Source: Treponema primitia ZAS-2
GTDB taxonomy: Bacteria; Spirochaetota; Spirochaetia; Treponematales; Breznakiellaceae
Assembly: GCF_000214375.1 (NCBI RefSeq)
Contig: NC_015578.1
Location: forward strand, 2,232,001-2,296,000
Direction of reading: 5' to 3'
Length of the DNA stretch: 64,000 nt
Of the stretch, positions 24,117-50,652 are shown in pieces. The stretch's first letter is position 1. Every line of letters begins with the position of its first letter. A program made the translations under genes and the position numbers. The notes below the pieces were generated by a model. That model was not told the DNA's origin and ran no database searches. It worked only from the letters and a program-made list of their open reading frames with translations.

Positions 24117-24392
24117 TATGATAGCTGTATTGGTGGTAGTGACCGGGGCGCTCCCCTGCGCAAGCAGGTTCTTGGCAATTCCCTACCACCCTAACCTGTA
24201 GAGCCTGCCTACGGAGCCCGGTAGGTCTCCTCCGGCAGAGAATTCCAGAGACGGGTGGCAGGGAATTGCCCGCCCGCCCCTGCCTCTGTCCCTATATAGG
24301 TACCTTAAAGCGGTTGCTATATACAATGGTATGGTTGACTTTAGTCGTTTGACGCTTTTTCGCCCGGTCAGTAGCCCAGCAGAGCTGTCATA
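24117..24392. mobile_element. MITE-like palindromic element, copy A, with both terminal repeats
   Basis: An imperfect terminal inverted repeat of about 32 bases lies at 24117-24150 and 24361-24392 (shared parts include TATGA, AGCT and TGACCGGG). Inside it, 24171-24190 pairs with 24254-24273 (CAATTCCCT...AGGGAATTG). Within that is a core starting CTAACCTGTAGA (24191) and ending AATTCCAGAGACGG (24241-24254). The same core recurs at 31011-31082 and, reversed, at 31458-31528. No transposase is encoded. It fills the gap between the esterase and the DUF192 gene; I see no other gene in this stretch. Confidence 0.72.
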
Positions 24393-31181: not shown

Positions 31182-31360
31182 ATGTTTAACAGCGGTCCAA
31201 AGTACCCCTTTAAGTACCATATACCATTGATCCAAAGCATCCCCTACCCTCATGTTTACCACCGATTTAAGGCGCCCCTTACCGTACCGTATACTAGCGA
31301 TCCAAGGCATACCCTACCCTTTTATGTTTACCACCGATCCAAGGCGCTCCCTCCCGTTAA
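31182..31360. repeat. Short tandem repeat, ~71-base unit, about 2.5 copies
   Basis: Units start ATGTTTA at 31182, 31252 and 31324. Each includes CCACCGAT or a variant and a second half with GATCCAA[AG]GCAT[AC]CCCTACCC, so the unit itself looks like a doubled ~35-base sequence. The copies are diverged (for example GCGGTCCAAAG, CCGATTTAAGG, CCGATCCAAGG). They lie between MITE-like copies B and C. I see no coding frame or CRISPR architecture here. Confidence 0.6.
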
Positions 31361-31639: not shown

Positions 31640-34600
31640 ATGTCCGAAAAACACATGGTTATGATTGATGGTAACACCGCCGCGGGCCAGGTTGCCCACG
31701 CGCTAAGCGAAGTAATCGCAATTTATCCGATTACCCCCTCCAGCCCCATGGGCGAAGTCTCCGATGAGCTTTCAGCCCAGGGCAAGAAAAACCTCTGGGG
31801 CACTATCCCCCAGGTGGTCGAAATGCAGTCTGAAGCTGGCGCCGCGGGGGCGGTCCACGGGGCCCTGACCTCAGGCGCCCTCTCTTCCACCTTTACCGCG
31901 TCCCAGGGATTGCTCTTGATGATCCCCAATATGTACAAGATCGCCGGTGAGCTCACCTCAACGGTGTTCCACATCGCCGCCCGTGCCCTGGCTACCAGTT
32001 CCCTCTCGATTTTCGGGGACCACCAGGACGTGATGGCCTGTCGGCAGACCGGCTGGGCCATGCTTTCCTCCAACAGCGTCCAGGAAGCAGCGGATTTGGC
32101 GGTCATTTCCCATGCCGCCACCCTTCGCTCCCGGATACCCTTCCTCCACTTCTTTGACGGTTTCAGAACCAGCCACGAATTGCAGAAGGTCGAGGAAGTG
32201 TCCTTTGATACCCTGAAGCAGATGATCGACGACGATCTGGTCCGGGCACACCGGCTGCGGGGGCTGACCCCGGAAAAGCCCTCCATCAGGGGTACCGCCC
32301 AAAACCCTGACACCTATTTCCAGGGCCGGGAAGGGGTAAACCAGTACTACAATAAGGTTCCCGCCATAGTTCAAGCGGAAATGGACAAATATGCCAAGAT
32401 CACCGGTCGTGCCTACCACATTTATGACTACTTCGGGGCCAAGGATGCGGAAAAGGTGATCATTATCATGGGTTCCGGCGCGGAAACCTGCGAAGAAACC
32501 GTGGAATACCTGAACAAAAACGGTGAAAAGGTCGGGGTACTCAAGGTACGGCTCTACCGGCCCTTTGATGCCGCGGCTTTTGTAAAGGCCCTGCCTGCAA
32601 CGGTTAAGGCTATTGCGGTTCTGGACCGGACCAAGGAGCCCGGCTCCCTGGGCGAGCCCCTGTACGAAGATGTCCGGACCGCCATCGGCGAAATTCAGGC
32701 TGAGGGAAAGGCCCAGTTCAAGGATTATCCCACCATTCTGGGCGGCCGCTACGGCCTGGGTTCCAAGGAATTCACCCCCGCCATGGTCAAAGCGGTTTTT
32801 GATAACCTTTCGGGTAAGAAAATCCCCAAATTCATCGTTGGGATCAATGACGACATCCTGGGCCAGAGCCTGGCCTATGACGAACATTTTGTTTTGGCCG
32901 AAGAAGGCATGAACGAAGCCATGTTCTACGGCCTGGGTGCCGACGGCACGGTCGGGGCCAACAAGAACTCCATCAAGATCATCGGGGACGCCAAGCCGGA
33001 ACTTTCCGCTCAGGCCTACTTCTCCTACGACTCCAAAAAATCCGGGGGCTTCACGGTCTCCCACCTGCGCTTCGGTAAAAGCGCCATCCGCCGCCCCTAC
33101 CTGATCACCAAGGCGGACTTCCTGGCCTGTCACAAATTCTCCTACATGGAAACCTTCGACCTCCTGGCCAACATCAAAGACGGCGGCACCTTCCTCCTGA
33201 ACAGCCCCTATAGCGCCACCGAAGTATGGAAGGAAATCCCTGTGGAAGCCCAGAAGCGGATCATCGACAAAAAGGTCAAGTTTTACGTGATCAACGCCGC
33301 AGAAATAGCCCGGAATACCGGCATGGGGAACCGTATCAACACGGTCATGCAGGCCGCCTACTTCAAGCTTTCCGGGGTGCTCCCGGAAGCGGATGCAGTC
33401 AAGTATATGAAGAAATTCATCGAAAAATCCTACGGCAAGAAGGGCGCCGACGTGGTCCAGAAAAACTACGCCACCGTGGATGCCTCGCTCAACGCAGTTC
33501 AGGAAGTGAAATACTCCGCTGTAGACGGCAAGCTTCATATGAAACAACCTTTTGCCACAGCCAAGGACCCCTGGATTCAGGATGTGCTGGGCGCCGTGTC
33601 CATCCAGGATGGGGACAGGTTGCCGGTAAGCAAAATCCCCGTGGACGGCACCTTCCCCACCGCCACCACTCAGTACGAAAAACGGGCGGTCGCCGAGCGG
33701 GTTCCCAGTTGGGACCCCTCGATCTGCGTTCAGTGCGGTACCTGTGCTATAGTGTGTTCCCACGCCTGTATCCGCTTCAAGAACCTTACCGACGCCGAAG
33801 CGTCCAAGGCCCCCAAGGGCTTTAAGACTGTGGCGATTAAGCCTAAGCCCGTGGACGGTAAACAGACTGCCCTGGTCATCTCCGCCGAAGATTGTATGGA
33901 ATGCGGGGTCTGCATCAACGCCTGCCCTGCCAAATCCAAAGAAGATCCGAACAAGAAGGCCCTAAGCTGGATTAACTATGCGGATAACCCGGAATACCAC
34001 GCGGAACAAGCCGCAGCCTGGGACTATTTCCTCAGCCTGCCCGAAGTTCCCGCGGAAGAACTCAACCTGTCCACCCCCAAAGGCCTGGCCTACAAGCGGC
34101 CCCTCTTTGAATTCTCCGGCGCCTGCGGCGGCTGCGGTGAGACTCCCTATGTGAAGATCCTCTCCCAGCTCTTCGGGGACCGGGCGGTTATCGCCAACGC
34201 CACGGGCTGTTCCTCCATCTACGGCGGGAACCTTCCCACCACCCCCTACGCCCAGCGCGCCGACGGCCGGGGCCCCACCTGGTCCAACAGCCTCTTTGAA
34301 GACGCCGCAGAATTTGGCTTAGGTATGCGGCTCACCAGCGACAAGCTGGCTGAGTTTGCCAGAGAAGTGGCAGTTGTCGCCAAGGGCGAAGGCCTCCAGA
34401 CGGGCATCATCGACAAGATCCTGGCAAACCCCCAGAGCACTGACGCTGAGATCGAAGATCAGCGCAAACTGGTAGACCAGCTCAAGGCAGCCCTGAAAAG
34501 CGACACGAAACCGACTGCCAAGCAGCTTGCCTCCCTGGCGGACCACTTCATCAAGCGGTCCGTGTGGATACTGGGCGGCGACGGCTGGGGCTATGACATC

Positions 34601-35203
34601 GGCTACGGCGGTCTGGACCACGTCCTGGCCAGCAACCGGAACATCAACGTCCTCTGCATGGATACGGAAGTGTACTCCAACACCGGCGGTCAGATGTCCA
34701 AGGCAACCCCCATAGGGGCCATCGCCAAATTCGCCGCCGCCGGCAAGGACATTACCAAAAAGGACCTGGGAGCCCAGGCTATGAGCTACGGCTATGTATA
34801 TGTGGCCCGGATCTCCATGGGGGCCAACATAGGCCAGACCATCAAAGCCTTCCGGGAAGCAGAATCCTACCCCGGGGCCTCCCTGATCCTCGCCTACTCC
34901 CACTGCATCAACCACGGCATCGACATGAGCAAGGGCCTGGAACAGCAGAAAGCAGCGGTTACCTCGGGCCTCTGGCCACTGTACCGCTACGATCCCCGGC
35001 TCAAGGGAGAGGGCAAAAACCCCTTCCAGTTGGACTCCAAGGAAGCCACCACCAGCCTGGAAGACTTCATGTACAAGGAAGTCCGCTTCAAGAGCCTCAA
35101 GGCTGCCAGCCCCGACCGCGCCGACGCCCTGCTTGCCAAGGCCAAAGCCCAGGCAGAGCGGGTGTGGAAAGAGTACAAGTATTTAGCGGATAGACCATTC
35201 TGA
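31640..35203 (+). CDS. nifJ: Pyruvate:ferredoxin (flavodoxin) oxidoreductase
   Basis: Converts pyruvate and CoA to acetyl-CoA and CO2 while reducing ferredoxin or flavodoxin; central to fermentative energy metabolism in anaerobes. The 1187-residue single chain has the usual homodimeric layout. Domain I begins MIDGNTAAGQVAHALSEV and YPITPSSPMGE. The gamma-type and CoA regions follow. Two 4Fe-4S motifs, CVQCGTCAIVC and CMECGVCINACP, lie near residues 697-760. The TPP domain carries GACGGCGETPY, NATGCSSIYGG, GGDGWGYDIGYGG and DTEVYSNTGGQMSKATP. A C-terminal activation-type extension is present. It has its own strong promoter and two terminator-like hairpins after the stop, so it is a single-gene transcript. 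Confidence 0.97.
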   Translation: MSEKHMVMIDGNTAAGQVAHALSEVIAIYPITPSSPMGEVSDELSAQGKKNLWGTIPQVVEMQSEAGAAGAVHGALTSGALSSTFTASQGLLLMIPNMYKIAGELTSTVFHIAARALATSSLSIFGDHQDVMACRQTGWAMLSSNSVQEAADLAVISHAATLRSRIPFLHFFDGFRTSHELQKVEEVSFDTLKQMIDDDLVRAHRLRGLTPEKPSIRGTAQNPDTYFQGREGVNQYYNKVPAIVQAEMDKYAKITGRAYHIYDYFGAKDAEKVIIIMGSGAETCEETVEYLNKNGEKVGVLKVRLYRPFDAAAFVKALPATVKAIAVLDRTKEPGSLGEPLYEDVRTAIGEIQAEGKAQFKDYPTILGGRYGLGSKEFTPAMVKAVFDNLSGKKIPKFIVGINDDILGQSLAYDEHFVLAEEGMNEAMFYGLGADGTVGANKNSIKIIGDAKPELSAQAYFSYDSKKSGGFTVSHLRFGKSAIRRPYLITKADFLACHKFSYMETFDLLANIKDGGTFLLNSPYSATEVWKEIPVEAQKRIIDKKVKFYVINAAEIARNTGMGNRINTVMQAAYFKLSGVLPEADAVKYMKKFIEKSYGKKGADVVQKNYATVDASLNAVQEVKYSAVDGKLHMKQPFATAKDPWIQDVLGAVSIQDGDRLPVSKIPVDGTFPTATTQYEKRAVAERVPSWDPSICVQCGTCAIVCSHACIRFKNLTDAEASKAPKGFKTVAIKPKPVDGKQTALVISAEDCMECGVCINACPAKSKEDPNKKALSWINYADNPEYHAEQAAAWDYFLSLPEVPAEELNLSTPKGLAYKRPLFEFSGACGGCGETPYVKILSQLFGDRAVIANATGCSSIYGGNLPTTPYAQRADGRGPTWSNSLFEDAAEFGLGMRLTSDKLAEFAREVAVVAKGEGLQTGIIDKILANPQSTDAEIEDQRKLVDQLKAALKSDTKPTAKQLASLADHFIKRSVWILGGDGWGYDIGYGGLDHVLASNRNINVLCMDTEVYSNTGGQMSKATPIGAIAKFAAAGKDITKKDLGAQAMSYGYVYVARISMGANIGQTIKAFREAESYPGASLILAYSHCINHGIDMSKGLEQQKAAVTSGLWPLYRYDPRLKGEGKNPFQLDSKEATTSLEDFMYKEVRFKSLKAASPDRADALLAKAKAQAERVWKEYKYLADRPF

Positions 35204-35226
35204 GAAAAAAACTTTCGGTTTTTTTC
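35204..35226 (+). terminator. A/T hairpin directly after PFOR
   Basis: GAAAAAAAC at 35204-35212 pairs with GTTTTTTTC at 35218-35226 around a 5-base loop. The run of T in the right arm makes it a weak bidirectional-type terminator. Confidence 0.6.
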
Positions 35227-35230
35227 TTAA

Positions 35231-35253
35231 GGAGTTTGGCGGAGCCAAACTCC
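35231..35253. repeat. Short perfect palindrome, GGAGTTTGGC family
   Basis: GGAGTTTGGC pairs with GCCAAACTCC around a three-base GGA loop. It belongs with the hairpins at 35409-35452 and 44401-44451. Confidence 0.7.
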
Positions 35254-35313: not shown

Positions 35314-35408
35314 ATGGTTAAAAAGCGGGAGGCGAATTTTCCCTTGCTGTTGAGACCCACCTAAAATCCCGGGGTTTATAGCCCTAGCCCCCATAAACCA
35401 AGCACTCT

Positions 35409-35452
35409 GGAGTTTGCGCAGCAAACTCCAAGCAAGTTCCGCAGGAACTTGC
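35409..35452. repeat. Pair of short perfect palindromes with GCA loops
   Basis: Two adjacent hairpins: GGAGTTTGC/GCAAACTCC (35409-35429) with loop GCA, and GCAAGTTCC/GGAACTTGC (35432-35452) with loop GCA. The two-hairpin layout is the same as that found inside the second histidine kinase gene at 44401-44451. Confidence 0.75.
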
Positions 35453-39057: not shown

Positions 39058-41616
39058 ATGAAAACGGACCTCAAAAAAATTTCACTAACCCTGCGTTTTA
39101 CCCTCTTTTTTATCATTTTTGTGCTTGCCGTAATCGCGATCATTATTACCACTTCCGTCCAGCAGATAAGGGACGCCGCAAAAATGACCAGCGCCTGGCT
39201 GGGGTTTCCCATTGTAAATCGGGCCGCCGCACAGATTGACGGTGACGCCTTCGAAAGACTCTGTAAAACCCTGAACGCCCGGGACCCTTTCTACGAGGAG
39301 ACCCGGCTTAAACTTTTGGCGATTAAAGAAGAAACCAAATGCCTCTACCTCTACACCATGGCGCCAAAACGGGGGGGAGGGGGACGAGGCCGGGGAAGGG
39401 GAAAGATATACCAATTCATTGTTGACGGCGGAAATCCGGAGGATGAAGGATTTTCCCCCATCGGCGCCGAAGAAGATACCAGCGCGTATGATATCGCCTT
39501 TCAGTTGGCCTGGGAAACAAAATTGCCCCAGTTCGGGACCCTGGCGGTACAGAGCCAGTGGGGCTACACCATAGGGACCTTTATGCCTATCTTAAATTCC
39601 GCCGGGGATGTTGTCGGTATTATCGGCTGCGATTTTGAAGCGGAATCGATTTTCAACGCCATCATGTCCCGGATCAAACAACAGACTGTTCTTTCTACGG
39701 CCTTAATCCTTCTTGGTTTTTTAATCTATCTGTTTTTGCTTAAGGGGGTAACGGCTTATAACCGGAATCTTCTGGAATTGAGCAGGAAAGCAGAGGCTGC
39801 TTCGGAAGCGAAAAGCGCCTTTCTTGCCAAAACGAGCCATGAGATCCGTACTCCCATGAATGCGATCATCGGTATGGCGGATATTTTACTGCGCCGGGAA
39901 CTGTCCCGGGAAAGCCATGAAGATGTGGAGAGTATTAAAAAGGCGGGGATGAGTCTGCTTTCCATTATTAACGACATTCTTGATTTTTCAAAAATAGAAT
40001 CCGGTAAGCTTGATATTGTAAGCGACGATTATACGCCGGCCTCGATGATCAATGATTGTATCAACATTATCCGCCCTCGGCTTAAAGGCGCCCCTGCTGT
40101 ATTCACGGCCCATGTTGATAACAGTCTACCCCAAACGCTTTCAGGCGACGCCACCCGCATCAGGCAGGTGCTTTTGAATCTTCTTTCCAATGCGGTTAAA
40201 TACACCAAAGAAGGAACCATCACCTTGACGGTTACGGCCCCGCCCCTTCCTGATATTGAGGACTCAGTTTTATTAACCATGACGGTTGCCGACACCGGCC
40301 AGGGTATACAGGCCGAGGATATGGATAAGCTGTTCGGGGATTTCCAGCAGGTAGACCTTAAGCGGAACCAGGGTATTGAAGGAACCGGCCTGGGGCTTGC
40401 CATAAGCCGCAGCCTTTGCCGCCTCATGGGCGGGGATATTACGGTCAGTTCGGTTTACGGCCAAGGCAGCGTTTTTACCGCCGCCATACCCCAGAAGCTT
40501 GTGAACGCCGCGCCCATGGCGGAGCTAAACCATCCGGGAAAAAGTCTTGTCCGCTTTACGGCGCCCGCCGCAAAAATCCTCATCGTGGACGATATTGTTA
40601 CCAATTTAAACGTAGCTCAAGGTTTGCTTGCCCCGTATCAAATGGATATCACCACCTGTACCAGCGGAGAAGAGACGGTCAAGCTGGTTATGGAAAAAGA
40701 CTACGATCTGATACTCATGGATCACATGATGCCCGGTATGGATGGCATAGAAGCCACGGCGGCTATCCGGGCCTGGGAAAACAAACGGCAAATTTCGGAG
40801 GGATATGCGAAGCATATTCCCATCATAGCTTTGACCGCCAATGCAATTTCCGGCATGAGGGAAATGTTTCTGGAGAAGGGCTTTGACGATTATCTTTCCA
40901 AGCCCATCGAAATTTCCAAACTTGACAGGATAATGGCCAAATGGATACCCACAGAAAAACAGATAAGCGCCGAAATGGAAACTGTTTCAGTGGAACCAGA
41001 CGCTGAAACAGCGCCGGGCACCGGGGGCATAAAAATAGACGGGGTGGACACCGCAAAGGGTATTGCCATGACCGGCGGGACCGAAGCCGTCTATCGGAAG
41101 GTATTAAGCGCTTTTTATCAGGACATTTTGGACAGGCTGCCCCTGTTTGCCCTCATTCCTGATCCGTCTTCCCTTTTCCTTTTTACCACCAATGCTCACG
41201 CCATCAAGAGCGCCGCCGCCACCATCGGGGCTGCCGCAGTATCCGCAGAAGCTGCGGAACTGGAGGCTGCGGGAAAGTCGGAGGACCTGGCGCGTATTAT
41301 AATGGGCTTATCGGAATTTTACCGGGACCTCCAAAATTTGGCGGATGGCATAAGCCGGGTCCTGGGGGACGATACCCCGGAGAATCAAGATAGGGGCGCC
41401 GGGGGAAGTTCCGCCGAGTATGTTCCCCTGTTTACGGAGCTCCATGCAGCGCTTGAACAGGAGCAACCCGGGACGGTACACCGCCTCCTTACGGAATTGG
41501 AAGCGGCGCCGCTTGACGGAAAAACACGGGAAGCCCTGGCTGCTGTTTCCAACGCAGTTTTAATGAGTGAGTTTCAGGAAGCAATCGAAAAGCTGACGGT
41601 ACTCCGCCAGACATAA
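39058..41616 (+). CDS. Hybrid sensor histidine kinase with terminal HPt
   Basis: An 852-residue membrane kinase. A membrane segment at residues ~10-34 and another at ~208-228 flank a periplasmic sensor domain of about 170 residues. Then follow HisKA with the phospho-acceptor in SHEIRTPMN (His261), HATPase_c (NAVKYTKEG, ADTGQGI, GTGLGLAIS), a receiver domain with LMDHMMPGMDG (Asp555) and a C-terminal HPt domain with HAIKSAAATIGA (His714). It thus holds all parts of an internal phosphorelay; no separate output regulator is adjacent. The sensor contains an unusual GGGGRGRGRGK stretch (residues ~105-115) encoded by G-rich tracts. It is paralogous to the next gene from HisKA onward. Confidence 0.93.
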   Translation: MKTDLKKISLTLRFTLFFIIFVLAVIAIIITTSVQQIRDAAKMTSAWLGFPIVNRAAAQIDGDAFERLCKTLNARDPFYEETRLKLLAIKEETKCLYLYTMAPKRGGGGRGRGRGKIYQFIVDGGNPEDEGFSPIGAEEDTSAYDIAFQLAWETKLPQFGTLAVQSQWGYTIGTFMPILNSAGDVVGIIGCDFEAESIFNAIMSRIKQQTVLSTALILLGFLIYLFLLKGVTAYNRNLLELSRKAEAASEAKSAFLAKTSHEIRTPMNAIIGMADILLRRELSRESHEDVESIKKAGMSLLSIINDILDFSKIESGKLDIVSDDYTPASMINDCINIIRPRLKGAPAVFTAHVDNSLPQTLSGDATRIRQVLLNLLSNAVKYTKEGTITLTVTAPPLPDIEDSVLLTMTVADTGQGIQAEDMDKLFGDFQQVDLKRNQGIEGTGLGLAISRSLCRLMGGDITVSSVYGQGSVFTAAIPQKLVNAAPMAELNHPGKSLVRFTAPAAKILIVDDIVTNLNVAQGLLAPYQMDITTCTSGEETVKLVMEKDYDLILMDHMMPGMDGIEATAAIRAWENKRQISEGYAKHIPIIALTANAISGMREMFLEKGFDDYLSKPIEISKLDRIMAKWIPTEKQISAEMETVSVEPDAETAPGTGGIKIDGVDTAKGIAMTGGTEAVYRKVLSAFYQDILDRLPLFALIPDPSSLFLFTTNAHAIKSAAATIGAAAVSAEAAELEAAGKSEDLARIIMGLSEFYRDLQNLADGISRVLGDDTPENQDRGAGGSSAEYVPLFTELHAALEQEQPGTVHRLLTELEAAPLDGKTREALAAVSNAVLMSEFQEAIEKLTVLRQT

Positions 41617-41635: not shown

Positions 41636-44600
41636 TTGAACGGATCGGGTACAAAACAAGTATTTTTATTCACAGTAATGCTTTTGGCATTCTTATCAAA
41701 TTTAAACGCCGAGCCCCGGGGAGCGGGCCCCCTGTATATAGACTTAAAAACCTACCCCCTCTATGTAAAATCCGGTTTTTCCCCCGCCGACCTTTTGAGG
41801 GGGCCCGATGTTTCTTCCGGTGCCTGGCAGGTGGTGGAAGTTTCCGCCGGCCCGGTGATGATACGGGATTTCGGGCTTCCGGATCTTCCCCGCCGTGTTT
41901 TCCTTTCCCCCTTTGGAGTTAAGGAAAGAGAATTTACTGTTCTTGTTCCCTTTAAGCCGGAAGACAAAATCCTCTCTGCTCTTGATTCGGATACTACTTC
42001 TGCGCCGGGTTTGTTTTTGGCCAGTATAGGTGACAACTGGGAAGTTTACCTTAACGGTCATCTGGTAAAGTCGGAAATGCACCTGAACTCTGAGGGTAGT
42101 ATTGTTTTGCACCGTAGCATGCGCTGGGTTTTCTTCCCCCTGGATAAAACCCATTTTGTCCCGGGGGAAAATATTCTGGGCTTCAGGCTCGTCGGGGATC
42201 CGACCTATAAATCCTTGGGGTTTTCCTATGCTTCCCCGTACTATATTGATGAGTATACCCGCATCGCCGATCAGTATAGCGAATCTCTGACCATGGCCCT
42301 GATTGGGGTGTATTTTTTCATGGGGATCTATCATTTATTTATGTTTCTTATCCACAAAAAAGAATACTATAACCTGTCCTATGGCCTTTTTTCAGTGGTA
42401 CTGGGTGTTTATTTCTCCATGCGTACCCATTTTATTTACCGCATTATTGCTAATACGGCTATTATATGGCGGGTAGAATATTTCTGTGTGTTCCTGGCGC
42501 TGCCCATTGCGGCTTTTTTCCTGGAAAGCCTTTGTCTGAAGAAAAACTTTATCATCACCCGGATTTACGGCGCCATTTCTGTACTGCTTGCAGTGGTTCA
42601 ATTGCTGTTTTCCCAAGCCTTTAGGGACGATATTCTAACAATATGGCAAGTAGTAATCATACCGGCTGGTATACTTCTCGTGAGTTTCTATTTTGGGTAC
42701 TCCTTTGTAATTGCATACCGGGAGATAAAAGGGCAGTATACCGCTCCGGGGGGGGTCTCCTTTCCCAGGACGGTGGCTAAAGTTTTTATTGACACCTCTA
42801 TTGGCAGTTTGATAATCGGGGGGGTAATCGGTATCGGCTCCACTGTTCTTGATTTAATCGACTCTACCTTTCTGCATTACGGGCTTACCCTGACCCGTTA
42901 CGGCTTTTTTGTGTTTACCACCGGGGCGGCCTTGATCATGGCCCGCCGGTTCGCCTCCTTGTACAACCAGCTAAACCTTACCAATAGGGATCTGGAGCAG
43001 ACAACCCGGACCCTGGAAAAGCAGATAAAAGCTTTGACAGAAGCGGAACGGGCAACCCAGGCAAAAAGCGTCTTCCTGGCCAATACCAGCCATGAGATCC
43101 GTACCCCCATGAACGCTATCCTAGGAATGGCGGAACTGATACTGCGGAAGGATATTCCCCAGGATGTATACGAAGAAGCCAGGAGTATCAAACAGGCGGG
43201 ATCAAACCTACTTTCCATCATCAACGATATTCTGGACTTTTCAAAAATAGAATCGGGCAAGCTGGATATTGTAGAAGTTGATTACCAGCTGGGTTCGGTG
43301 ATTAACGATGCTATCAGCATCATCCGTATCCGGCTGAGCGAAAAACCAATACTGTTCACTGTGGATATTGACAGCAGGCTGCCGGACCGCCTGGCAGGGG
43401 ATGAAGTACGGGTGCGGCAGGTATTGATGAACCTCCTCTCCAATTCGGTCAAGTATACCCAGGCAGGCCACATTATCCTTGCAGTCACCGGTGAGCTGTG
43501 GGAAGATCAGATTATTCTGGCCATTTCGGTTACCGACACCGGCATCGGTATTAAACAGGAAGATATGGGGAAATTGTTCGGGGAGTTCCAGCAGTTTGAT
43601 ACCCACCGGAACCAGGGCATTGAGGGAACCGGCCTGGGGCTTGCCATAAGCCGTAACCTCTGCCGCCTTATGGGCGGAGATATTGTGGTGGACAGCGTAT
43701 ACGGAAAGGGCAGCGTCTTTACCGCAACCATACCTCAGAAGGTGCGGGAAAAGGAGCCCCTGGCGGCGGTTGAAAACCCTGAAACAAAAGCGGTACTGCT
43801 CTATGAAAGCCGGAAAGAATACGCCGATTCGATTGTCTATTCGATACAGAACCTGAGCATGCCGGTAACCGCCGCCGTGGATATGGAACACTTTAGCCAG
43901 GAGCTGAGGGCCAGTTCACTCCCCGGTGAGAAAAGGTATTCCTTTGCATTTGTATGCGCCGAGGCAGTGGAGGCGGCGTTATCCATTATACAGGAATTAT
44001 CCCTGCCCACAAAATTGGTGCTCCTGGGAGCGCTCCAGGAAATATCCTCCTTCAAGAATATCCCTATTATCAGTATGCCCGCCTATGCCCTGCCCATTGC
44101 CAATGTGGTTAACGAAAAAACAGATACCCCCTATCATACAGAAACCATTGTACGGTTTACTGCCCCTGACGCCCGGCTCCTCATTGTTGATGATATTGTT
44201 ACCAACCTGAATGTAGCTAAGGGGCTTCTGAGTGTATATCAGATCGATATCACCACCGTAACAAGCGGAAGGGAAGCGGTAGATTTGATAAAGAACAACC
44301 GCTATGATATGATACTGATGGACCACATGATGCCCGAAATGGACGGCATTGAAGCGACTGCAGCAATCCGGGCCTGGGAAGCCGAACAAAAGGAGTCGGT
44401 GGAGTTTGATCCGCAGGATCAAACTCCCAAGGAACAGGCAAAGCCTGTTCCCATCATCGTTCTTACCGCAAACGCAGTAACCGGGATGAGGGAGATGTTT
44501 TTATCCAAGGGCTTTAATGACTACCTCTCCAAGCCTATTGAGATATCCAAACTTGACGGGATGATGGCAAAATGGATACCCCTTGAAAAGCAGATAAAAC

Positions 44601-45232
44601 CAAAGCCCGGAACCGATTCTGAACGAACTATGGAAACCACGGGTATAAAAATTGACGGGGTGGATACTGCCAGGGGCCTGGCCATGACCGGCGGGACTGA
44701 GGCGGGGTACCGAAAGGTGCTGGCCTCCTTCCGTAAGGATGCCCTGGAACGGCTGCCCGGACTGGAACGTGTTCCCAATGAGCAGGAACTCTCCCTTTTT
44801 ACCACCAATGTACATGCCCTCAAGAGCGCTGCCGCCACCATCGGCGCTGCCGGGGTATCAGAGGAAGCCGCGGAACTGGAGGCGGCGGGGAAGGCAGGGG
44901 ATCTGACCCGTATCGAAGAAGGGCTTCCTCCGTTCTACTGGAATCTGAAAGATCTGGCGGAACAGATAGTATCAGTGCTGGATGACAAGGTCGACGCTGA
45001 AACTGATTCCGATAGCGATATTTCCCAGTACCTTCCCCTGTTCACGAAGCTAAAGGAAGCTCTGGAACAAGAGCATCCCGGGCTTATCCGCAGTATCCTT
45101 ACGGAACTTGAGCAAAAACCCTTTAACGACAAAACGAAAAAACATATCGATGGTATTTCAAATTCAGTCCTGATGACTGAATTTGAAGAGGCCTTAGTAA
45201 CAATAAATAAACTGATTAACGACCTGAGTTAA
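41636..45232 (+). CDS. Hybrid histidine kinase with 7TMR-DISM sensor and terminal HPt
   Basis: A 1198-residue kinase starting at TTG with AAGGAAAAAAG upstream. It has a signal peptide (~1-25), an extracellular beta-sandwich DISM domain, seven membrane helices (~215-435, beginning ALIGVYFFMGIYHLFMFLIH), HisKA with His486 in SHEIRTPMN, HATPase_c, a degenerate receiver-like stretch (~715-840) with no obvious acceptor Asp, a full receiver with Asp896 in LMDHMMPEMDG, and HPt with His1060 (HALKSAAATIGA). DISM sensors typically detect carbohydrates or related ligands outside the cell. The loop before PIIVLTA in the receiver carries two inserted palindromes. The paralogous kinase lies immediately upstream and a PHP hydrolase gene downstream. 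Confidence 0.93.
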   Translation: MNGSGTKQVFLFTVMLLAFLSNLNAEPRGAGPLYIDLKTYPLYVKSGFSPADLLRGPDVSSGAWQVVEVSAGPVMIRDFGLPDLPRRVFLSPFGVKEREFTVLVPFKPEDKILSALDSDTTSAPGLFLASIGDNWEVYLNGHLVKSEMHLNSEGSIVLHRSMRWVFFPLDKTHFVPGENILGFRLVGDPTYKSLGFSYASPYYIDEYTRIADQYSESLTMALIGVYFFMGIYHLFMFLIHKKEYYNLSYGLFSVVLGVYFSMRTHFIYRIIANTAIIWRVEYFCVFLALPIAAFFLESLCLKKNFIITRIYGAISVLLAVVQLLFSQAFRDDILTIWQVVIIPAGILLVSFYFGYSFVIAYREIKGQYTAPGGVSFPRTVAKVFIDTSIGSLIIGGVIGIGSTVLDLIDSTFLHYGLTLTRYGFFVFTTGAALIMARRFASLYNQLNLTNRDLEQTTRTLEKQIKALTEAERATQAKSVFLANTSHEIRTPMNAILGMAELILRKDIPQDVYEEARSIKQAGSNLLSIINDILDFSKIESGKLDIVEVDYQLGSVINDAISIIRIRLSEKPILFTVDIDSRLPDRLAGDEVRVRQVLMNLLSNSVKYTQAGHIILAVTGELWEDQIILAISVTDTGIGIKQEDMGKLFGEFQQFDTHRNQGIEGTGLGLAISRNLCRLMGGDIVVDSVYGKGSVFTATIPQKVREKEPLAAVENPETKAVLLYESRKEYADSIVYSIQNLSMPVTAAVDMEHFSQELRASSLPGEKRYSFAFVCAEAVEAALSIIQELSLPTKLVLLGALQEISSFKNIPIISMPAYALPIANVVNEKTDTPYHTETIVRFTAPDARLLIVDDIVTNLNVAKGLLSVYQIDITTVTSGREAVDLIKNNRYDMILMDHMMPEMDGIEATAAIRAWEAEQKESVEFDPQDQTPKEQAKPVPIIVLTANAVTGMREMFLSKGFNDYLSKPIEISKLDGMMAKWIPLEKQIKPKPGTDSERTMETTGIKIDGVDTARGLAMTGGTEAGYRKVLASFRKDALERLPGLERVPNEQELSLFTTNVHALKSAAATIGAAGVSEEAAELEAAGKAGDLTRIEEGLPPFYWNLKDLAEQIVSVLDDKVDAETDSDSDISQYLPLFTKLKEALEQEHPGLIRSILTELEQKPFNDKTKKHIDGISNSVLMTEFEEALVTINKLINDLS
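44401..44451. repeat. In-frame pair of short perfect palindromes inside a kinase gene
   Basis: GGAGTTTGATCC pairs with GGATCAAACTCC (44401-44427, loop GCA), followed by GGAACAGGC/GCCTGTTCC (44431-44451, loop AAA). The pair matches the layout of the intergenic pair at 35409-35452. It encodes about 17 residues that the paralogous kinase lacks, in the loop before the PIIVLTA strand of the receiver domain. Confidence 0.8.
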
Positions 45233-45958: not shown

Positions 45959-46025
45959 GACAGCGTTCAGGAACAAAGAAAGCAGATATTGATCCCATTT
46001 TGCCCGTTCATTTGTTACATTTTTG

Positions 46026-46037
46026 GTAAACGGTTGC
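46026..46037 (+). promoter_or_regulatory. LacI-type operator, upstream site of copy 1
   Basis: GTAAACGGTTGC, one base different from the promoter-proximal site, 160 bases further upstream. This spacing would allow repressor-mediated DNA looping. Confidence 0.65.
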
Positions 46038-46152
46038 AATGATGTTTCGGTATAAATTTTAAAAAATGGACTTTTCAACAAGATTTTTGGGAATATTTAA
46101 GGATAAGTCACAGCAAATTACATTTTATAACTATTTTTAAAAAATATTTTTC

Positions 46153-46182
46153 TTGACAGATTTATAATTCAGGGGTTACAAT
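46153..46182 (+). promoter_or_regulatory. Promoter of the first ABC importer operon
   Basis: A perfect TTGACA (46153-46158) and TACAAT (46177-46182) are separated by 18 bases. Transcription would start near 46189, inside the operator at 46186-46197, giving a leader of about 120 bases before the ATG at 46310. Confidence 0.8.
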
Positions 46183-46185
46183 AAC

Positions 46186-46197
46186 GTAAACGGTTAC
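46186..46197 (+). promoter_or_regulatory. LacI-type operator at the start site, copy 1
   Basis: GTAAACGGTTAC is a near-palindrome with the central CG typical of LacI-family operators. It sits right after the -10, where a bound repressor blocks initiation. The LacI-family gene at 58211 is the natural candidate regulator. Confidence 0.75.
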
Positions 46198-46309
46198 AAA
46201 CCATTGATTTTCTTGCTTTTTATGCAAGGTGATCATAGAATTAAGAACAAGTTACCTAAGTCCCGGTATAAAAACCGATACTATACAATTTCGAGGAGGA
46301 AATTTTAGT

Positions 46310-50366: not shown

Positions 50367-50464
50367 GCTTAATTATTGCTTCTACCGGCCACTGGCAAGC
50401 AGCGTTCAGGAACAAAGAAAGCAGATATTGATCCTATTTTGCCCTTTCATTTGTTACATTTTTG

Positions 50465-50476
50465 GTAAACGGTTGC
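50465..50476 (+). promoter_or_regulatory. LacI-type operator, upstream site of copy 2
   Basis: GTAAACGGTTGC, identical to the upstream operator of copy 1, 158 bases before the proximal site. Confidence 0.65.
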
Positions 50477-50589
50477 AATGATATTTCGGTGTAAATCGTA
50501 AAAACTAGGCCTGTCAACAAGGTTTTTGGTAAGATTTAAGGATAAGCCACGTCAGATTACATTTTTTTCACATTTTATAAATATTTTTC

Positions 50590-50619
50590 TTGACAGATTT
50601 AAAATTCGGGGGTTACAAT
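50590..50619 (+). promoter_or_regulatory. Promoter of the phosphatase/second importer operon
   Basis: TTGACA (50590-50595) and TACAAT (50614-50619), spacer 18 bases, as in copy 1. The predicted leader is only about 27 bases before the ATG at 50653, unlike the ~120-base leader of the first operon. Confidence 0.8.
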
Positions 50620-50622
50620 AAC

Positions 50623-50634
50623 GTAAACGGTTAC
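50623..50634 (+). promoter_or_regulatory. LacI-type operator at the start site, copy 2
   Basis: GTAAACGGTTAC, identical to the proximal operator of copy 1 and placed the same way just after the -10. Confidence 0.75.
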
Positions 50635-50652
50635 AAACCGAATAGGGGAGTT

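Follow-up and report, generated by a model that had tools for sequence, protein, structure and literature searches.

In mitochondria, of fungi and of other organisms, double-hairpin elements consist of two adjacent hairpins with variable stem sequences and look mobile. In bacteria, Rickettsia palindromic elements (RPEs) and the intragenic REPs tagged by GTAG or CGTC are short dispersed palindromes that occur singly or as dimers. They lie mostly between genes, near gene 3′ ends, and some are placed in frame within protein-coding genes, essential ones included (PMC3733652). For Treponema primitia, T. azotonutricia and spirochaetes, literature searches yielded nothing relevant on palindromes.

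The repeat described here resembles RPEs and intragenic REPs (PMC3733652) in being dispersed and in lying in frame within protein genes. Unlike them, it has neither a CGTC nor a GTAG tag: compared by tag, its copies end in GGAG…CTCC, the foot being GGAG paired with CTCC. Its inner stems vary between copies yet stay complementary, and it occurs in a spirochaete family. As with the GTAG REPs and REPINs that are associated with RAYT (Y1), hairpin doublets are scattered between genes; however, the GTAG tetranucleotide expected as a head at the 5′ end is absent from the flanks of the copies, and the presence of Y1 does not track copy number. With the mitochondrial double-hairpin elements, compared by description, the repeat shares the two adjacent hairpins of variable stem, but it differs in its location on a bacterial chromosome, its conserved foot and its in-frame coding copies. 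We consider it probable that a twin hairpin within a kinase gene of T. primitia ZAS-2 is an in-frame coding copy of this lineage-specific, dispersed, REP/RPE-like double-hairpin repeat.

The window, a stretch of 64,000 nt, corresponds to positions 2232001–2296000 of the host genome, a single contig of 4,059,867 bases. On its forward strand, the gene at 41636–45232 encodes a hybrid kinase with 7TMR-DISM, HisKA, HATPase, receiver and Hpt domains. Hairpin A (GGAGTTTGATCC-GCA-GGATCAAACTCC, 44401–44427, + strand), with a stem of 12 bp, codes for the residues V-E-F-D-P-Q-D-Q-T-P and is joined by a CAA spacer (44428–44430, +) to hairpin B (GGAACAGGC-AAA-GCCTGTTCC, 44431–44451, +), which has a stem of 9 bp and lies on receiver codons. 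Both hairpins are perfect, possess 3-base loops and are in frame with the ORF, exactly as the sequence-only reading had described them, and the insert is located in the receiver loop that joins helix alpha3 to strand beta4. Such a pair is rarely reproduced by chance: among 300 synonymous-codon shuffles of the kinase ORF, hairpins with a loop of 3 and a stem of at least 9 bp occurred at a mean of 0.03 (2 observed), and none had a stem of at least 12 bp (1 observed). The RNA fold of the region yielded a z of −7.7 against shuffles. In the AlphaFold2 model of the insert-bearing receiver the fold is intact (mean pLDDT 89), with the insert modelled as an unstructured, low-confidence loop from alpha3 to beta4 (block means 64–77). 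The predicted tryptic peptide of the insert-bearing kinase is ESVEFDPQDQTPK.

Aligned with the neighbouring paralogous kinase (39058–41616, +), which lacks hairpin A, the window kinase has 10 extra residues, or about 30 nt, equivalent to hairpin A plus the spacer. Only these are extra because hairpin B sits on codons that the neighbour already has: where hairpin B lies in the window gene, the neighbour's GYAKHIP codons are already quasi-palindromic, and these receiver codons (EYAK-H-I-P type) are also found in kinases without the insert. The original estimate of about 17 inserted residues, absent next door, therefore holds for hairpin A and fails for hairpin B, whose codons are native. A typical solved receiver from the PDB has a loop shorter by 15 residues. 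The insert is present in four close paralogues of the host genome (the window gene, L011, and L012, L013 and L014) and was absent from 14 further paralogues (L015 to L028) and from all 23 receiver homologues taken from other genomes. The sharing of the insert by four paralogues speaks against a single fresh landing.

When the loop was taken out and trees were built from kinase plus receiver, L013 grouped with L017 and L012 with L016, the partner being insert-free in each case. These pairings were supported by 100/100 and 96/91, respectively, in the tree of the kinase part alone; L014 was included in the kinase plus receiver tree only, and trees built from the short receiver alone did not resolve the history of the insert. 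Monophyly of the insert-bearing kinases was not recovered in the kinase tree. Hence, the insert was lost, converted or regained among the paralogues, and the data fit one origin followed by loss, conversion, or landing more than once. Most of these paralogues reside in a cluster of hybrid kinases at 3.05–3.08 Mb of the host genome (L012–L014, L016, L017, L019, L020, L023). Within this cluster the type of receiver loop is out of step with the kinase-domain tree, which suggests gene conversion.

Hairpin A belongs to a family of common design, consisting of the fixed foot GGAGTTT…AAACTCC, copy-specific inner stems that match within each copy, and a short loop. A pattern search that fixed the foot and left the inner arms free (GGAGTTTN{3,30}AAACTCC) returned 32 exact-foot copies in the host genome and 0 for the reversed-pattern control, bearing out the palindrome family that had been suspected. 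Although 17 distinct arms are represented, 114 of 125 inner pairs are complementary; exchanging arms between copies lowers the match to 36%. In the covariation analysis, which used 18 copies and left out the kinases and the window, 29 double-changed cells were counted against 7.9 in shuffles (0/500). A covariance model built from these 18 copies, to which no kinase copy had contributed, recovered the kinase copy (E = 1.4e-4 in the window) and detected about 42 genome sites at E up to 1. Three pattern matches inside genes (L110, L130, L131), with short or poorly matched inner arms, were rejected as likely chance, and there was no Rfam match to a known RNA family at gathering score within the window.

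A second hairpin usually follows or precedes the A-type copy at a distance of 0–6 nt: counting the host and related genomes, a partner within 6 nt was present at 40 of 59 copies, and short spacers of 1–4 nt are seen in most other copies. As in the double-hairpin elements, the two adjacent hairpins have variable yet complementary stems. In the window, the intergenic pair that had been placed at 35409–35452 comprises an A hairpin (TGGAGTTTGC-GCA-GCAAACTCCA, 35408–35430, +) and a partner (GCAAGTTCC-GCA-GGAACTTGC, 35432–35452, +) of the GCAAGTT type, which has 11 copies in the host genome and is essentially absent from the remaining members of the genus. A third pair was found at 35203–35253, with an A hairpin GGAGTTTGGC-GGA-GCCAAACTCC (35231–35253, +) and a partner (35203–35227, +) that overlaps the stop codon of the gene at 31640–35203. 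While the family counts are genome-wide, the general hairpin census covered an 800-kb sample plus the 64-kb window. In these 864 kb, hairpins with a stem of at least 8 bp numbered 166, whereas a first-order shuffle gave 53; for adjacent hairpin pairs the counts were 18 and 0.

Further repeats were noted in the host genome. Hairpin clusters occur in and around the lipoprotein genes L133 and L134 (2.100–2.110 and 3.446–3.456 Mb) with the foot types GGAGTTTCGGC, GCAAGTTCC and GACGAAAAAGG, and a Y1 transposase ORF lies at 3456598–3456930. In the window, intergenic direct repeats at 45961–46202 and 50400–50639 (189 nt at 86%, then 67 nt at 94%) terminate in the promoter-like stretch TTGACA…GGTTACAATAACGTAAACGGTTACAAACC. 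Four imperfect direct repeats of 34 nt, spaced by 35–70 nt, are located at 31182–31357, and repeats of 61 nt at 24225 and 31052 form a separate set.

With one genome per species in the comparison set, 136 of the 150 genomes from the host's family (gut spirochaetes) contain the foot pattern, with copy numbers across the set ranging from 0 to 182, the low counts including some chance matches. In the rest of the phylum counts were near the control background, and among the matches listed there the inner arms were mostly non-complementary, with possible exceptions, e.g. in G159 and G172. The other genomes of the host's genus hold only 1–3 copies, so the expansion is lineage-specific. Copies of about 40–44 nt in the contigs of G121 share an internal asymmetric stem GGAGTTTGCGGTAAGCCAGCC…CGCAAACTCC and form a more conserved, REP-like subfamily.

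Other in-frame copies were observed in the host genome. These are located in the N-terminal extension of an RluB-like pseudouridine synthase (L119, SVEFQPKLETPKGP), in the lipoproteins L133 and L134 (peptide GVSA.PKLQ) and in the radical-SAM/B12 protein L135 (peptide PLWSFGWAKTP); the RluB-like and radical-SAM/B12 copies were assigned from frame and family membership. Among relatives, PurL (L177) carries an in-frame copy where eight PurL homologues have shorter loops and no hairpin, and the AmrS-like radical-SAM protein L126 is about 18 residues longer than most of its eight aligned homologues. Seven of these eight lack the insert; an unrelated long loop is found in L273 and a partial loop in L275. 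Homologues without the insert were thus aligned for the kinase, the lipoprotein, AmrS and PurL. Coding copies occupy all three reading frames; ORF overlaps at L006, L180, L181 and similar sites involve unconfirmed ORFs and were excluded from the coding count. The proposal of a mobile palindrome family that lands in coding loops accordingly stands as regards dispersal and in-frame copies; movement is a conjecture, and hairpin B does not qualify as inserted.

Changes in one arm tend to be matched in the other. In L013 and L014, hairpin B has the arms GGAATATGC/GCATATTCC, from which the GGAACAGGC/GCCTGTTCC of the window gene differs by two changes per side, with pairing kept and the residues Y, H and I altered. 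L012 combines GGAACAGGC with GCATATTCC, resulting in two mismatches, and differs from the L013/L014 type in the left arm only. The probable ancestral type is GGAATATGC-GAA-GCATATTCC, and L012 would represent either an intermediate or a recombinant of paralogues. The lipoproteins show the same behaviour, with arms GCGGACCC/GGGTCCGC versus GCGGTCCC/GGGACCGC, and an uninserted lipoprotein paralogue already has the right arm of the hairpin. In addition, a perfect 13-bp palindrome at 45157–45187 (+) of the same kinase gene lies on the native Hpt-end codons SNSVLMTEFE without any insertion; at this position the paralogues have nearly identical residues and no indels, and the palindrome is absent or imperfect (L016 comes close). 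Arm correction is not absolute, since a mismatch in hairpin A is retained in L012–L014, as are the two in hairpin B of L012.

Multi-base matching of arms is described as a footprint of template switching, by which perfect stems are made or repaired through arm copying, in two reports (PMC8794818; PMC8604942). The matched changes seen here likewise most likely arise at replication, when one arm serves as the template for the other. A parallel for coding stems in which several amino acids change at once comes from the coding palindromes of Nematomorpha mitochondria (PMC6649704). Unlike in these examples, the process would here act on a dispersed family as well as on native codons.

On the reading that we favour, an in-frame copy of the dispersed repeat, hairpin A with its spacer (about 30 nt) would have landed beside nearly palindromic receiver codons. 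The kinase fold would survive because the frame used is free of stop codons and the loop between alpha3 and beta4 is tolerant. Duplication, probably together with gene conversion, would then have passed the insert between tandem paralogues. The stems would change in sequence yet stay complementary, since template switching within a hairpin rewrites one arm from the other. We infer movement as the way in which the family spread, template switching and not selection as the cause of arm matching, and neutrality of the loop. Target-site duplications were not identified. As the mover, a RAYT/Y1 transposase was rejected: over the 150 family genomes the Spearman correlation between Y1 count and copy number was −0.17, with the highest Y1 counts being at least 27 per genome, and four copy-rich genomes (G148, G075, G056 and G132; 40–136 copies), some of them incomplete, had no Y1 match. 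A bolder version is conceivable, though we regard it as rather doubtful: a family-wide double-hairpin mobile element served by a non-Y1 enzyme that recognises structure, not sequence, above a short foot and so tolerates hypervariable stems, lands next to existing quasi-palindromes, also in essential genes, and couples amino-acid changes in the two arms.

Alternatively, the family may consist of RNA signals, such as tandem terminators or 3′-end stabilisers, selected at gene ends, with coding copies as rare by-products. Several doublets that begin at a stop codon and have their partner hairpin nearer the gene are compatible with this (L001, L002, L005, L006, L117, L118; positions from simple ORF calling), some partner hairpins have the A-tract/T-tract form of a terminator, and selection for RNA pairing would yield covariation too. 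Many intergenic partner hairpins are placed at gene ends and look terminator-like, so function may preserve some members of the family, in which case covariation would be expected as well. As an account of the whole family, however, RNA signalling appears unlikely given copies inside genes (PurL, the receiver), where termination would be harmful, and copy numbers from 0 to 182 within one family; moreover, no intrinsic terminator (G+C-rich stem-loop plus T run) was called at 44401–44451 or at the two intergenic A hairpins.

If hairpins arose locally by template switching alone, without a mobile element, the insertion-free 13-bp palindrome, the position of hairpin B on native codons and the lipoprotein right arm in an uninserted paralogue would all be accounted for. 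This process cannot produce a GGAGTTT foot shared by about 42 sites and by 136 of 150 genomes, nor a GCAAGTT partner recurring in 11 copies, and we judge it improbable as the full explanation. Selection of the inserted peptide as a functional loop at the protein level could explain why the kinases and the RluB-like protein have the peptide frame VEF.P…TPK in common; yet coding copies elsewhere are read in the remaining two frames (GVSA.PKLQ; WSF..AKTP) and 14 host-genome paralogues do without the loop, which makes this idea very hard to sustain.

That dispersed palindromes tolerate coding loops is already known from REPs and RPEs, and the repeat shows the same behaviour as these do in other bacteria (PMC3733652); new is the double-hairpin form with its concerted arm evolution, which fits template switching. 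With these results, palindromes that code for protein, known above all from Rickettsia, are extended to an entire spirochaete family. The kinase paralogues keep an apparent half-changed state, so that coding DNA, in which the cost in amino acids can be read off, allows a direct test of whether selection or template switching keeps both arms matched. For annotation, short in-frame loops in such proteins may represent insertions at the DNA level rather than functional features.
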